Shown piece by piece: positions 3,129 through 46,800 of a stretch of DNA of 64,000 bases. The stretch is taken from NCBI GenBank assembly GCA_024345305.1, contig BRON01000010.1, forward strand, positions 930,001 through 994,000, read 5' to 3'. The position numbers and the translations under genes were made by a program. Within the stretch, counting starts at the first letter, position 1. Every line of letters starts with the position of its first letter. Under the pieces are notes generated by a model. That model did no database searches, was not told the origin of the DNA, and was given only the letters and a program-made list of their open reading frames with translations. The stretch comes from Mrakia gelida. Taxonomy: Eukaryota; Basidiomycota; Tremellomycetes; Cystofilobasidiales; Mrakiaceae.

Positions 3129-5604
3129 ATGTCTTTCTCGAGGATCGCAGCCCAAGCGTTCAGGGGCGTCGCCCCTCGGTCAACAGTGCCTGCTGTGAGT
3201 CATACATCCCCCTTCCTATGCCTGCGAGAAAGGAAACGGAGGAGAGGAGAGAGGGAGGCGGAGCGGTTCTCTTGCTCGCAAAAACAGCATGGTCGAGCAT
3301 CTCTTTTGCTGACCTCTCGTTCCTCCCCTTCTCCTCTCTCTCCTCAGGCCCGATTCGCTTCCACTTCTTCTGCTTCTTCCGTACGTCCTCCCTTTTAATC
3401 CGCTCTTCCTTTCGCTCGCGATCGCGTCCAGTGAGCGGTCGACTTTACCTGACCGACCTCATCTCTTTCCTCTCCTCCCTTCCCTTCGTCACCCCTCCTT
3501 TCGCCTTCTTCCTTCCCCTTCTTCTTCTCTCTACTCTAACAGGCCCCATCTCGTCTCCACCTCGCCGCTGCCTCGCTCGCCTCTGCTGGAAGCATCAGTC
3601 TCTACGTTTACTCGTACGGAATCCCTCAGGCTTTGCTTCCTGAAGCTGCCTTCGCCAACACCGTCGGAGAGGATGGTCTCCACGCTCCTGATATCCCTTT
3701 CTACCAGAAGGGTTGGCTCCACACCTTCGATCACGCTTCGTGAGTACACCCTTCTTATCTCTCTGTATCTGGAGTGGGTGGTTTAGTGGAGAGGCGGAGG
3801 AAAGGAGGAACAAGGGAGGGAGGGAAGAGTCGGAGGAGGAGAGGAAGGGAGAGGGACGACGTTTGGTTGGTCGACAGCGAGAAGGCCCTCCCAGACAGCT
3901 TCCCCGAGCTCTGCCTCGCGCGGAATGATGGGAAAGGCAGCTCTGGCAGTCTGGAGAAGCTGGAAATGGGACTCGGAGAGCTAGAGGGAGAGCTGGGAAG
4001 CAGAGAAGAAGGGGTTCACGTCCACTCACTCCCCTTCCAGCCAGCTCCCTCTCTCTTTTCCCAACTCCCTCCGACTCTCCTCGCTCCCACCCTCCCTCAC
4101 CTCCTCTCTCGCTCCGCCCACCTCACGCACCTACCTTCTCAGCACCATCTCAGCTAGAAACTGACCTCGTCCTTACCTTCTTTCGTTCCCGATCGATCCT
4201 TCAACCCAATCCAGCATTCGACGAGGATACGTCGTCTACCGAGAGGTCTGCTCCGCCTGCCACTCCCTCAACCGAATCGCCTGGCGAAACTTGGTCGGAG
4301 TCTCCCACACCGTCGATGAGGTCAAGGTACGTCTCTCTTCCTCCATTCCTTCTCGGTTGTTCGATGGTGGATACGCGGTAGAAGGGACCGAGAGGGCCGA
4401 TTTCGCCAGCTCAAACCGAGCCAACGAAGGAGCTCGACTTTGGTGTCCCTTCTCGAGGGCCCCTTGCTCTCGACCCCGTTTGTTTCTTCCTTTCTACGAA
4501 CCTCGAAGCTGACCACCTTGTTCTTCTTCTCGTACCCAGGCCTTCGCCGAGGATGTCGAGTACACCGATGGACCCAACGACGAGGGAGAGATGTTCCAAC
4601 GTCCAGGAAAGCTCGCCGACTACCTTCCTCCTCCCTACCCCAACGATGAGGCCGCCCGAGCTGGAAACGCCGGTGCTCTCCCTCCTGATCTCTCGCTCAT
4701 CGTTAAGGCTCGACACGGAGGAATCGTACGTCCTTCCCTTCTCTCTCTCTAGACCTCGCTCGCCTCCTTTGCTTCGCTGCTCATTGGTCCTGAAGAACCC
4801 GAGCTCGAGCTGACCTCCCTTCGCCTTCGTTTCTTTCCTCGTTCGCTCGCTACAGGACTACATCTTCTCGCTCTTGACCGGTTACGTTGATCCCCCTGCT
4901 GGTGTTGAGATCCGAGAGGGTGAGTCTTCTCTTCTCTTCCTTGCTCGATTGAAAGCGTCGGACCTTCGCGGTCCTTGTTCTTTCGTTCGTCTCGCTGACC
5001 TCTCCTCCCTTTCCCAGGTCTCAACTATAACCCTTACTTCCCTGGAGGAGCTCTCGGTATGGGCCGAGTCCTCTACGATGGATTGGTCGAGTACGACGAT
5101 GGTTCGTTCCCGCTTCCCTCCTCCTTTCGCTCCCTGTTCGTCGACGAATCACTCGTCCTGACCTCGCTTCTCTCTCTTCTTCGATCGAATACAGGAACCC
5201 CCGCTACCTCTTCTCAAATGGCCAAGGATGTCTCGACCTTCCTCAACTGGGCTGCCGAGCCTGAGCTTGACGAGCGACACAAGTTGGGACTTACCGTTCG
5301 CCCTCTCTCCCCTCTCCTCTCTTCCCCTCCTCGCCTCGTTCTCGTCGCTGACTCCCCGCTCCTTTCTCGTTCTTCAGTCCTGCACCATCCTCACCACCAT
5401 GTGGCTCATCTCCATCTGGGTCAAGCGATACAAGTGGGCTCCTATCAAGTCCAGGAAGATCCGTGAGTCGCTCGTCTCCTTCTCTTCCCTCCTTTCCTTT
5501 CCCCTCCCTCTCTCCCTTCGTCCTTTCCCTTCCCTTTGCTGACCCAACCCCTCTCGTTCGTCGCGACAGTGTACAATCCTCCCGCCCACACTGGACACCA
5601 CTAG
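3129..5604 (+). CDS. CYT1: Cytochrome c1, mitochondrial (complex III heme subunit)
   Basis: Cytochrome c1 carries electrons from the Rieske protein to cytochrome c in the bc1 complex of the inner mitochondrial membrane. About ten exons splice cleanly. The protein starts [18 protein letters not shown] (mitochondrial presequence), continues through [11 protein letters not shown] and an [20 protein letters not shown] segment, then the heme-attachment motif CSACH in exon 4 (from 4215). Next come [40 protein letters not shown] and [20 protein letters not shown], then [15 protein letters not shown]. The C-terminal membrane anchor is [20 protein letters not shown], ending with PPAHTGHH and TAG at 5602-5604. 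All family landmarks are present. Exons 1-3 are 3129-3194, 3348-3380 and 3543-3739. The third intron (3740-4214, 475 nt) is several times longer than the others in this gene. Confidence 0.97.
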
Positions 5605-11114: not shown

Positions 11115-11698
11115 ATGTCAGGCCAGAACGCCAACTACGGTCAGAACGGAGCTGGAGGAGGAGGACCTGGAGGACCAGGAGGAGGAACTCATCAAGCTGT
11201 CGCTCAACCTCAGGTGTACCTTTGTGCTGGTATGTCCAGCTGTCTCTCTCTGTTACATCCCTTCGGGTGGTGTTGGGTAGAGCCCTAGGGAGAGGTGTTT
11301 CGAAGGATGTAGGGTGTTAGGAGGACTTCGAAGCTGACCTCTCTCTCTCCTCCTTCTCCTTCCCACCTTCGTCCCTTCGTTCCCTTCGCTTTCGTTCGCG
11401 CTCAGATTGCGCCGCCGAGAACCCCATCCGAATGGGAGAGCCTATCCGATGCCGAGAGTGTGGTCACCGTGTTATGTACAAGCCTAGGACAAAGAGGAGT
11501 GCGTCCACATCCCCTCTTGACCTCGAACGTCGAACGCAGGAGAAGCTGACCGCCTCCCTTCCTTCCCTCTCTTTCCTTTCTTTTCTTGCAGTGGTGAGTC
11601 CACTTCCCCCACCTCAGTCCAGCTCTTCATCAGAGGGACACAACCGCTGACAGTTGGTTTGGTTCGTTCGTCCTCAGGTGCAATTCGAGGCGAGATAG
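11115..11698 (+). CDS. RPB12: RNA polymerases I/II/III subunit ABC10-alpha (Rpb12)
   Basis: Rpb12 is a small zinc-binding subunit shared by all three nuclear RNA polymerases. The protein has a Gly/Gln-rich head ([20 protein letters not shown]) and then the zinc ribbon [38 protein letters not shown]. The four zinc cysteines are the two in YLCADC and the two in CREC. Exon 2 ends with a single A at 11498. The invariant tail MVQFEAR, identical to the tail I recall for yeast Rpb12, is only obtained by inserting the two bases TG at 11592-11593 as a separate exon, then GTGCAATTCGAGGCGAGATAG split from it by an intron (11594-11677). Both flanking introns have donors (gtgcgt, gtgagt), CTGAC branch sites and CAG acceptors. 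Retaining the second intron would instead give a frame ending after a Ser-rich tail. The exon model is therefore 11115-11230 (approx.), 11406-11498, 11592-11593 and 11678-11698. Confidence 0.93.
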
Positions 11699-26846: not shown

Positions 26847-29229
26847 TCAGAGAGACAGGAACTTCCATCCGAGATCGGTGGGTTCCCCACCGATGTGCAT
26901 CAACTGATTCGCGTTGTTGACGCCCTGCATCTGTTCCATCGCTCCGAAAGGCATGATGATCTCGACCATGGGGTTGTTGTTGGCCCAGACGGCGGTTCCC
27001 TCGAAACTGGGAAGCGGGGAGAAAAGGGGAGCATCAGCTGCTCCGTCAAGGAACGGCAACGCGACGACGTCGCGAGCGAGAATCGATCGACGTACAACTC
27101 GTTTCGAACGTAGTCCCAGGAGCATTGAGGTCCACCGCTGTGGATGCGAAAGGTGCAACGAGTCAGACAGGTCTAAAGGAGACGGAGGGAGATAACGAGA
27201 GAGGACTGACCTGAAGCTGAAGAGAGAAACGGAAAGAGCAAAAGGGCGACGCGTCAGTTTCTGAATGCAGAACTCGAGCTGCAACAGACGACGACTCACC
27301 TGTGGCTGTGATAGTTACGGAGGAGATTAGTTGAGTAGATTAGCTCGTGGATATCGAGAAGAAAGACGTGTAAGAAGGCAGCACGAACCAGGCGTATTCC
27401 GTGATCGCGACGGGCCTCTTGAACGTATCGATGAAGTCGGTGACGTATGCCTGTAGAGCAGAACTATCAGGATCAGCTTAGCAAACAAGAAACTCGCGCG
27501 AGAAGACTAACCTGGAAGTCTCTAAGAACGAGAGGAGAAGCGAGAGCGAAAGAAGATCAGAACACGTCGAGGTCGAGTCTCGGTCGAATTCGTCCTCCGT
27601 GAGAGCTCTGACTCACAGGTGATCGTTACCGTACCAGTGGACGACGGTGATATCCCAAGGATCGTTCGGGCAAGCAGCTTGGAAGTCCTGCGAAAGCGAA
27701 AAAGGAGGCCGCGAACGCGTGAGTCGATCAGCGTTCGGCTTCGGCTCGTTTATCGCAAAGTCACCCCCTCCATCCCTCTCGTTGAAGTCTCGTCAAGCTG
27801 GGAGGATAACTCACCAGCAACCACTGCTTCCCCGAAGGACTGTTATCCGGAGCCATCGAAAGAAGCCGAATCCCAGGGACGACGTCTCGAAGTTTCGCGA
27901 AATGTTCCTTCCAGATCCCACAGCTCGTCCAAGGGTCAACGTTGGCTTGTCCTCCGTTGTTGGCTTCGTTGAAGAAGGCCGCTTTGGTGACGCCGGCGTC
28001 TTTGAAGGTGTGGATGTTGCTGGAAGAACAAGGGTCGAAGGAAGTCATCAGCGACGCGTCGAGGTTCGTCGAACGAAGGCTTGTGTAGAGGAAAGGGACT
28101 TACGACTCCCATTCTCCGATACTGAGAGAGGAACAAGCAAGTGGGATATCAGCTGCGAGGCTTCGAGATGATGCTCCACGAGAAACAGCGGAGAGGGAAA
28201 GCGGACTCACTGCCCAGGTCCTGCGATTCGAGGGTCGAAAGCGAACGAAGACGATCAGCTTCGCGTAGGTGAGGGAGGCAGATATGAAACCCACGTACCC
28301 CAGAGCATAGGAATGAAGTCGACGTTGTTGAAGTAGTTCGGAACCCAAGACTGAGTGTTGAGCAGAGAAGAAAAGACGGTTAGCGAGCTTGTCGGACGAA
28401 CGTCGACTCGTCGCTGGCTCTCCTGTTTCTCGAGGTCGAGGGTCTACGTTGACGACTCACCGACCAGGTGATGACACTGACGAGAAAGCGTAGAAGATCA
28501 TCGTCAGCAAGCGTGTCTAACTTGAGGTGACCCGAGGAAGAACGGACACGTCGTCCTCCCTCGAGAGAAATCGTCTCGCGCGACTCGACGCGCTCGACGA
28601 AGCTGCTCACCTCGCACCAGGAGCCTGCGACTCCCACAGCCCAGGCTGATCAGACTGTCCATTCGGCCAGGCGAGTCCGAACTTCCCCTTCCTGTTCGAA
28701 GGAGGAGGAGGAGCGGGAGGAGTAGTCGTCTGTCAAGAGAAAACAAAACGAAACAAGACGCGCCGAGGACTGGTCAGCTTGGCGAGTTTCTTCGTTCTGT
28801 GGGGAAGAGAGTCTTGCTTACAGGGGGAGGAGGAGGAGCAGGAGGAGCAGCAGTAACGACGGGAGGAGGAGCTTGAGTCGAGACGGGAGGTTCGATCCAA
28901 GCTGACGTGGTGATGACCTGAGGCTGAGTTTGAGAGGGAGCTGGGACGAGGGAGACTCCTGGAGGAGGTCGAGCTTTGCATCTTCGAGGGAGACCGGCTC
29001 GTTTCTGGACGACGACGATGGGGCTCCTGTCCGAGTCGAGGATTTGAGCGGAAGCGGCAGCGGCAGCCCGTCGACTAGCGACGGAGGAGTGTCGACGGTG
29101 AAGCCTCAATCCTCGCGAGACGACGTCGTTGGCGAGGGCTGAGGTTGGGGTGAAGACGAGAGCGAAGATGAGGGCGAAGAGGAGAGGAAGGAGGGTGAAG
29201 AGTCGAGGGAGGGAGAATGAAGCTGGCAT
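26847..29229 (-). CDS. Secreted GH128-type glycoside hydrolase, copy 2, with micro-exons
   Basis: The start at 29229 gives a hydrophobic signal (LFTLLPLLFALIFALVFTPT, SALA), then a basic stretch, a Pro/Ala-rich stalk (APPAPPPPP) and the GH128 core: FGLAWPNGQSDQPGLWESQ, SVITWSSWVPNYFNNVDFIP, MLWG, AAFFNEANNGGQANVDPW (catalytic Glu; NEPN is NEAN here), LLSMAPDNSPSGKQWLL, ITVVHWYGNDH and RPVAITEYAC (second Glu). It ends ANQLMHIGGEPTDLGWKF-LSL and TGA. The segment after EYAC (HSFSGGPQCSWDYVRNEF) exists only if two separate 6-nt exons, CCACAG (27300-27305) and CTTCAG (27211-27216), are kept. Both are flanked by full introns. A 10-nt exon (28211-28220) follows MLWG. About fifteen exons in all. Copies 1 and 3 have equivalent residues without these tiny exons (except the 10-nt one, shared with copy 3). 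Confidence 0.9.
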
Positions 29230-44810: not shown

Positions 44811-46222
44811 TTAAGCGTAGTTGTCGATCAACGAATCCCTCATCTCCGAGATGATGGCCGTCGACGACTGTCCTTGCAGCTCTGAGGGAAAGGGAGACGA
44901 AGAAAAGTTCGCGACGGATCAGTCTCCAGCTTCGTTCGTTCTGCCGAGAAGATCGAGCTCGCTCGGGTTGGGACCAGGAAGAGGAGGAAAGATGTGACTC
45001 ACTGAAGGTGGCCTCGATGACGGAGATCTCAGTGGCGGTGGTGTCGATTCCAGTGAAAGCGCACCAATCGTTAACGACGAGTCCAGCTCCAAGAACGTCC
45101 GAACCACGGTTGACGGTTCCGGCCTTTGAGACGGTGGAACGATATAGAGGAAGAGTCAGCTTCGTCGTTTCGAATCGCCAAGAAAGCGCGACCGATCCTC
45201 GAAGGAGACGCGTCTCTCGAAGTCGAGGTCGAGGTCGCGCGAGCTCAACCAAGACCAAACCGAGACGAAAGACTCACCACCAGAGGGACCTGCAACAGAC
45301 TACTCAGCTCCTCCTGCTCACTCCTCGTCGTCTTGGGGTGGACCAACCCTCCCTGGTTGCTCAAAGCACAGTAGCTTCCGACGAGAACGTTGGAGGCGAC
45401 GGTCTGCCTGAAGACCTCGACCTTGAGGACGTCGGCGATGATCTCCTCGGTCTCTCGGTCGATATCAGGGTGAACGAGAGCCACGTAGTCGTTGCAGGCG
45501 ATGACGTTTCCAAGGGCGGAGAGACGCTCCTCGACTCGCTGGATGGCGACGGAAGGAGGGAGGGAGTTTCGGAGGTGCTGGAGCTCTTGATCGGTGGTGG
45601 AGTTGGGGAGGAGGAGACCGTGTCGGTTTCCTGGGGGAGGAGGAGGAAGGAGAGGATGGCGAGGGGTTAGCGAAGAGATATACAGAGAGAGAGAGAAAGA
45701 AAAGAGAGAGAGGAGCGAGATGGAGAGAAGAGACCTAAAACTCACCAGCACAGAGTCGACCAATGATCCTGGTTCCTCCGATGGTGGTGTTTACTATAGG
45801 GATGACATCCTGAAGCTCAGCCTCGAAGTGGGAGTAGAAGTTGACGGATCCTCCGACGGCGGTGAGGCAGTAGCTGTTGGTGAGCTTAGAGAACACTCCG
45901 ACTGGAGGGAAGAGAAGGGGCAGGAGAGGTCAGCTCTTTTGAGCTCGAGAAGCTTCCCCTTTGGACTGAAGGTGGAAGGGGCTGGAGACGTACTCTCGGA
46001 GCTGTAAGATGAAGGAGGAAGGGAAAGAGAGGATGAAGAGAAGGTTAGCTCGAAACTCGAAGTATAGATCGGAGGGAGGGAAGGGAGGGAGGAAGGAGAG
46101 GAGAGCTCAAGCTGAGCGAGCAACCCTCGACTTTCTCGATCCGAACGAGAGCTCAACGCCTTTCGCCTTAATCAAGAGGAAGGTGGAACGTACCTGTTCT
46201 CGAACTGAAGTCTGGTGGCCAT
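44811..46222 (-). CDS. TIF6: Eukaryotic translation initiation factor 6 (anti-association factor, 60S biogenesis)
   Basis: eIF6/Tif6 binds the 60S subunit, is needed for its assembly and blocks premature joining to 40S. Exons give [200 protein letters not shown] and the tail [14 protein letters not shown]. That is full length and collinear with the family. The N-terminus needs an 8-nt exon CTCCGAGA at 45994-46001 between exon 1 (46194-46222) and the exon starting at 45901; it encodes most of Ser-Ser-Glu and keeps the phase. Confidence 0.97.
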
Positions 46223-46800
46223 GCTGTAGAAGAGCTCTTGAAGGTGGTGGTGGTGGAGTGCGGGGGTTCTGAGGGAAACAAAGGCAAGGCAAAGGAAGGA
46301 AAGAGAGAAGGTCAGCACCGATCCCTCTTCTTCCGAGTCCTCCTCTCCCAGAGCTCCCCAGGCTTCAAATTAAGCTCGACTCTTTTCACAGGGAGGCGAA
46401 GGTGTATGTAGAGAGTCCGAACTCACTGGTAGGGTGGTTTAGGGGAAAGGGAAAGGGAGGGAGGGGGTCGAAGTTGGTTGTTCAGCTCGTTCGCCCTCCT
46501 CCTTCGAAGTTCTTACTCTCGAAGCCGCAGTTGGGAGTCAGGAGCCGAGGATGACTCTTTCGGTACTGCTCTCTCTCTTTCTTGTTTCGAGGGCAAGACC
46601 TGACTCGACGAGAAGAGGTGCTTCGAACTCCTGGTCCTTGCAGTGCTTTTCGGATCCGGAAGTTTCTCGCGAAGAGGGGCAAAGATCGAAGCTGAGTCCA
46701 TCGTCACATTGCGAGAGTCCGCGTCGTCGCGACCTGCCCTCTCCCCCGCCTCTCCCTCCTTGAGAACTAGTTTGTACGGCGATGCTGAGAGTAACTAAAA
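46223..46800. other. Intergenic region TIF6 / cupredoxin gene
   Basis: This 578-bp region contains the TIF6 promoter and the 3' flank of the next minus-strand gene. No coding bias is seen. Confidence 0.4.

Follow-up and report, generated by a model that had tools for sequence, protein, structure and literature searches.

The window, by which we mean the whole stretch of 64,000 nucleotides analysed here (positions 930,001 to 994,000 of contig BRON01000010.1), comes from Mrakia gelida, a member of the Tremellomycetes and of the order Cystofilobasidiales, whose assembly GCA_024345305.1 comprises 25 contigs and 34.9 Mb (PMC12749792). The gene at 11115-11698 on the plus strand is RPB12 (RPABC4). 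Its product carries the Zn_ribbon_RPAB4 domain (PF03604, 62.6 bits against a cut-off of 24) and matches 13 PDB sequences, 11 of which align with it through the last residue; its best homologue, among the 120 matches listed of 283, comes from Mrakia frigida (88% identity). A family search of the whole genome (34,857,517 bases in 25 contigs) returned this gene as the single match, and no intronless spare copy was found by that search in the 34.86 Mb. The subunit is common to RNA polymerases I, II and III. In yeast it is essential, as the original prediction had assumed, it makes contact with Rpb2 and Rpb3, and altering the charge of its C-terminal domain impairs growth or is lethal (PMC2680338, citing earlier work). 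The predicted structure of the gene is the following.

11115..11229, plus strand: RPB12 coding exon 1, from the ATG to the first base of an Asp codon (translation; gene finder)
11230..11405, plus strand: predicted intron 1, GTATGT...GCTCAG, 176 nt, with CTGAC at 11334-11338 (translation; gene finder)
11406..11498, plus strand: RPB12 coding exon 2, which runs from the zinc ribbon through KR and closes with the A of the Met codon (translation; PDB and Pfam matches)
11499..11591, plus strand: predicted intron 2, GTGCGT...TTGCAG, 93 nt, with a branch-like CTGAC at 11546-11550 (gene finder; splice-site scores)
11592..11593, plus strand: predicted 2-nt exon TG, bases 2 and 3 of the Met codon (translation; structure enumeration; gene finder; shuffles)
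11594..11677, plus strand: predicted intron 3, GTGAGT...CCTCAG, 84 nt, with a branch-like CTGAC at 11647-11651 (gene finder; splice-site scores)
11678..11698, plus strand: last exon GTGCAATTCGAGGCGAGATAG, VQFEAR and the TAG stop (translation; tail conserved in PDB and listed homologues)

Spliced together, the four exons (11115-11229, 11406-11498, 11592-11593 and 11678-11698) encode an undamaged protein of 76 amino acids ending in KRMVQFEAR, and removal of intron 1 joins YLCA to DCAAEN, colinear with the homologues. The original prediction, which had ended exon 2 in AAG AGG A at 11498, put TG at 11592-11593 and drawn the introns at 11499-11591 and 11594-11677, was exact in these coordinates. 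The donors GTGCGT and GTGAGT, the CTGAC branch sites and the CAG acceptors that it had described are present as well, in both introns, so that TG is flanked by two introns that are each complete in donor, branch and acceptor.

The argument for such an unusual exon is first of all one of reading frame. Exon 2 is colinear with the homologues up to KR and then leaves a single A at 11498 (...AAG AGG A); the last exon begins right behind a CAG, and the one codon between the two is short of its last two letters. According to the original prediction, MVQFEAR can be produced only if TG is spliced in alone between two introns. We enumerated every way of reaching the stop from exon 2 through one or two introns, each at least 25 nt long. 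When the introns are GT-AG, just one structure in 3,925 gives KR, zero to three residues, VQFEAR and a stop, and it is the structure with the 2-nt exon; a tail of the conserved R-T-K-R-M/L-V-x-F-x-A-R type is thus obtained with TG and in no other of these 3,925. If GT or GC donors are allowed, ten of 16,835 structures restore the VQFEAR tail and a single one has Met, again that with the 2-nt exon; the nine others place Ser, Lys, Arg-Glu, Ser-Leu-Thr or Ser-Ala-Pro before VQFEAR, and each includes at least one GC donor. Skipping of TG changes the frame, as predicted, and yields a tail KRSAIRGEIV... (18 residues not written out here); keeping intron 3 alters the tail (21 residues not written out here), also as claimed, and keeping intron 2 makes it 31 residues longer. 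The junction strings are AGGA-TG-GTGCAA, ACAAAGAGGATGGTGCAATTC and ACAAAGAGGATGGTGCAATTCGAGG for the 2-nt exon form, and AGGA joined to GTGCAATTC, together with ACAAAGAGGAGTGCAATTCGAGG, for the form that skips TG.

The second part of the argument is protein conservation, where every count is based on the 120 homologues listed among 283 matches. Of these 120, 115 have a tail that is complete and normally spaced, and Met stands before VQFEAR in 114 of the 115; the one exception is the Mrakia frigida protein P0001, with Ser. The remaining five (P0002, P0067, P0088, P0098 and P0107) have tails that are cut or changed. PDB chain 3h0g_L, which we take to be from S. pombe, contains KRMVQFEAR without any difference, and the statement that this motif is identical in yeast can be kept for that protein; it does not extend to S. 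cerevisiae, whose Rpb12 has Leu at the Met position. Two proteins from related fungi, P0001 and P0002 (from Phaffia, ending KRMVTR), are odd at or beside the Met codon, as seen at the protein level only. Two further homologues have database tails that resemble introns translated as if they were exons, at the places of intron 2 and intron 3, respectively: Crassisporium P0067 reads KRSKSFIPREREQTHLTSMTVVQFEAR, which, turned back into codons, is compatible with retention of a 54-nt intron (A|GTAAGT...ACAG|TGGTG) in the intron 2 place; the environmental sequence P0107, with a core similar to that of the smut-fungus proteins P0054 and P0056, reads KRMVSATTC..., a tail that fits an intron right after the ATG, which is the intron 3 place.

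We also used a gene finder of our own writing, which scores codon usage, donor, acceptor, branch and length, makes no use of protein homology, accepts exons of any length and has no model for a codon divided among three exons. It was trained on 264 kb of DNA, the window plus the 200 kb before it; an initial codon-usage model based on long open frames was discarded after it had shifted towards purine-rich shadow frames. The training set with RPB12 excluded contains 78 genes and 685 introns (on average 8.8 per gene, with a median length of 91 nt), and the finder so trained predicts the held-out gene from the correct ATG to the correct stop, with introns at 11230-11405, 11499-11591 and 11594-11677. 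This training began from parameters learned with RPB12 included, and one seed acceptor had been typed by hand from RPB12; a clean retraining with neutral seeds and with RPB12 out from the first round gave the same structure (77 genes, 661 introns), and a clean retraining that admitted GC donors gave the 2-nt exon again (77 genes, 675 introns, 14 GC donors). One other GC-admitting retraining called no plus-strand gene at the RPB12 locus; with the held-out parameters fixed and GC donors allowed, the 2-nt structure was returned and the missing call was not repeated.

Introns 2 and 3 are of normal length (93 and 84 nt against the median of 91). Among the 685 introns their donors stand at percentiles 36.1 and 90.9, and their acceptors plus branch sites at 99.4 and 47.0, respectively. 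The clean retraining (661 introns) gives 35.1 and 90.8 for the donors and 99.4 and 49.5 for acceptor plus branch, and the percentiles are almost unchanged if only genes scoring at least 60, or at least 100, are used. The sites that touch TG, namely the acceptor plus branch of intron 2 and the donor of intron 3, are therefore the strong ones. Intron 2 has a donor, GGA|GTGCGT, that is weaker than average, and its strength is doubtful because the hexamer GTGCGT is not over-represented (48 seen, 44.3 expected), whereas GTGAGT and GCTGAC strongly are.

Nine structures were scored against one another, namely the 2-nt exon, retention of both introns, and structures in which one or two introns end at 11539, 11591, 11617, 11622 or 11677. 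The eight competitors are 8.0 to 29.1 nats worse than the 2-nt exon, with deficits of 8.0 for retention of intron 3, 12.1 for retention of intron 2, 18.4 for skipping and 29.1 for a single GC-AG intron. We shuffled the central part of 11499-11677 20,000 times with its dinucleotide composition preserved, leaving the outer donor and the final 40 nt in place; AG-NN-GT was present in 4,152 of the shuffles, and none of the 20,000 matched the score of the real pair of sites. The AG-TG-GT with its two flanking introns is more than chance. None of the 50 roomy AG-NN-GT sites within the 685 training introns is as good, which is a weak control, as the finder would split such introns.

Taken together, these observations lead us to think, with a probability of roughly 92%, that the Met codon before VQFEAR is assembled from the A of exon 2 and the TG of a 2-nt exon. 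We infer the splicing of TG from the sequence anatomy, frame logic, site strengths and protein conservation shown here; the argument from frame and conservation carries most of the weight, and the gene finder is supporting evidence.

The alternative that survives best, although we think it very unlikely, is one that the original prediction had missed when it rightly described the skipped and intron-3-retaining forms. A single GC-AG intron at 11501-11677 would join AGT (Ser) to GTG and produce KRSVQFEAR (junction strings ACAAAGAGGAGTGTGCAATTC and ACAAAGAGGAGTGTGCAATTCGAGG), so keeping the frame and VQFEAR with one intron. This is the exact tail of Mrakia frigida P0001, and the predicted splice sites of Mrakia psychrophila are described as GT-AG or GC-AG (PMC5100859). 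However, the GC donor of a member of this class should match U1 strongly and this one does not: AGT|GCGTCC scores -7.4, below all 691 donors of a GC-admitting training set, 12 GC donors included. The structure lies 29 nats below that with TG, and Ser is found in none of the 114 other complete tails among the homologues listed. Moreover, the Ser of P0001 may itself be an annotation artefact. A one-intron alignment of a true cDNA with TG can be placed in three ways, whose ends are GT-TC, TG-CA or GC-AG; only the GC-AG placement has accepted ends, and it reads AGT for Ser, so that the Mrakia frigida tail would be the expected result of annotating the same 2-nt exon wrongly.

One could also suppose that the main transcript skips TG or retains an intron, giving a different protein tail, or unspliced forms that act as an off switch. 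Intron retention is reported as the commonest alternative splicing event in Mrakia psychrophila (PMC5100859), the form that retains intron 3 is the closest scored alternative at 8.0 nats, and the KRMVTR of Phaffia P0002 could be an intron read as coding. Skipping or retention would nevertheless destroy the conserved tail of a gene that has one family match in the genome and is essential in yeast (PMC2680338), and both sites touching TG are stronger than most; we give this possibility slightly less credit than the GC-AG intron; minor retained forms are compatible with the 2-nt exon as the main one. As for an assembly error or a pseudogene, in which a missing or extra base would make a plain one-intron gene seem to need a 2-nt exon, the evidence does come from one genome only, but we hardly believe it, since the exons give an undamaged protein from the sole family match in the genome, an indel would not produce, at the right place and with 2 nt between them, an acceptor plus branch at the 99th percentile and a donor at the 91st, and this codon is odd in the related Mrakia frigida protein as well.

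If the 2-nt exon is real, introns 2 and 3 would be complete GT-AG introns of ordinary size, each recognised alone by intron definition. Joint binding of U1 to the donor of intron 3 and of 3' splice-site factors to the acceptor of intron 2 seems implausible at an exon of 2 nt. As the sites flanking TG could hardly be bound simultaneously, general splicing knowledge suggests that the introns are removed one after the other, and it is in this sense that we infer an ordered removal. On the sequence either order would work, with intron 2 removed first to give ATG|GTGAGT, or intron 3 first to give CAG|TGGTGC; once intron 2 is out, the donor becomes ATG|GTGAGT and its score rises from 7.47 to 7.82. 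Skipping would be disfavoured because it needs an intron of 179 nt, longer than about 92% of those here (8.2% of the 685 introns reach this length), and results in a frameshift.

The literature holds several precedents of this size. A 1-nt exon in Fusarium CYP621A is reported with 18 RNA reads in two species and in 20 orthologues (24 genes in the discussion of that paper, PMC12940212). Like the RPB12 exon, it is a fungal exon of 1-2 nt between complete introns, revealed by a conserved motif that could not be assembled otherwise; unlike it, it is 1 nt long, lies in a seldom expressed P450 and is backed by RNA, whereas the RPB12 exon has 2 nt, lies in an essential polymerase subunit and is known here from sequence. 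Exons of 1 nt in plant APC11 (PMC4674806) and VPS55 (PMC8831610) are described as experimentally proven and kept across many land plants, and Arabidopsis spliced an APC11 exon engineered to 2 nt (TT), whereas rice misspliced it (PMC4674806). These share with RPB12 an ultra-short exon in a conserved gene; they differ in being plant exons with experimental proof, where ours is a fungal exon deduced from the genome. PMC12940212 cites exons of 2-5 nt in Arabidopsis, Drosophila and human, which are in the same size class as the TG of RPB12 and come from a plant and animals, none being fungal. The view of the original prediction that such exons are at the limit of what splicing can handle was thus overstated: 2 nt is not the lower limit, constitutive 1-nt exons being documented (PMC12940212, PMC4674806, PMC8831610). 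Among the open-access papers listed on microexons, 1- or 2-nt exons, fungal or basidiomycete microexons and RPB12, we found no earlier report of a 2-nt exon in RPB12.

Stwintrons (PMC5639578) also pack two introns together in a fungal gene and are removed successively, but there a splice element of one intron is broken up by the other, and no sequence between the two is retained. We considered and rejected this arrangement, with an internal intron inside a splice element of an external one, for RPB12: removal of the whole of 11499-11677 results in a frameshift, and TG must stay.

How could two introns come to lie so close? The Cystofilobasidiales are reported to have the highest intron numbers among the fungi compared, 7.65 per gene, with 8.2 in Mrakia blollopis (PMC5103461), and close intron neighbours are to be expected with such numbers. 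Intron 2 would most likely be the older one, intron 3 having been gained 2 nt away. The places of intron 2 and of intron 3 may each be used singly elsewhere; when both are used together, 2 nt are left between them. The first 16 nt of the two introns (11499-11514 and 11594-11609) agree at 14 positions, and positions 7-16 agree at nine of ten, a match reached by 155 of 234,270 intron pairs and by none of 607 adjacent pairs. Part of one intron may have been copied from the other, although the match over the first 16 nt was noticed after the fact. We rejected a duplication of the whole intron, as introns 2 and 3 are overall no more alike than other introns (score 44; as many as 238 of 350 other introns align as well or better to intron 2, and 102 of 350 to intron 3).

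Tentatively, and with more doubt than conviction, we suggest that the 2-nt exon may be old and present throughout the Cystofilobasidiales. A second intron, part of it possibly a copy of the first, would have joined an ancestral intron in the Met codon at a distance of 2 nt downstream; all three RNA polymerases (I, II and III) would then depend on a strictly ordered removal of these introns, and ultra-short exons would be a regular by-product of near-saturating intron gain.

If our main reading is true, a fungus has a 2-nt exon in an essential RNA polymerase subunit that is shared between polymerases, and the strong sites on both sides of TG suggest selection for strength. This TG would then be a test case in two respects: how spliceosomes treat neighbouring sites that are unable to be occupied together, and whether ultra-short exons arise from the dense gain of introns in Cystofilobasidiales. 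A further suggestion is that annotations err predictably, the Ser of Mrakia frigida being exactly where a forced one-intron alignment puts a Ser.

The gene finder over-calls small exons. With RPB12 held out, it called 607 internal exons, ten of which are of 10 nt or less (1, 6, 6, 8, 9, 9, 9, 10, 10 and 10 nt), and the called 1-nt exon sits where two unrelated genes look fused. In the cytochrome c1 gene (3129-5604, plus strand, ten called introns), a called exon of 27 nt adds nine residues relative to the best PDB match and is probably false. The Glyco_hydro_cc gene (26847-29229, minus strand) was called with two successive 6-nt exons at 27300-27305 and 27211-27216 inside the motif ACHSFSGG; dropping the five residues at these exons costs 4.4 of 135.4 bits, which makes them weakly supported. 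The eIF6 gene, called at 44811-46701 on the minus strand, has an 8-nt exon at 45994-46001 (CTCCGAGA) in a conserved N-terminal motif; from its Met, the model aligns with residues 1-244 of 245 of PDB eIF6 across this exon, with one single-residue gap. The called 5' end of eIF6 beyond the Met is doubtful, an earlier model having begun at 46222. A pair of similar genes, one across the window start (to 1318, minus strand) and one upstream on the contig, share the same called 9-nt exon ACCCTCACG between two introns. Finally, the window contains a nuclear RNase P RNA at 1697-2286 on the plus strand (44.2 bits), a long copy of 590 nt.
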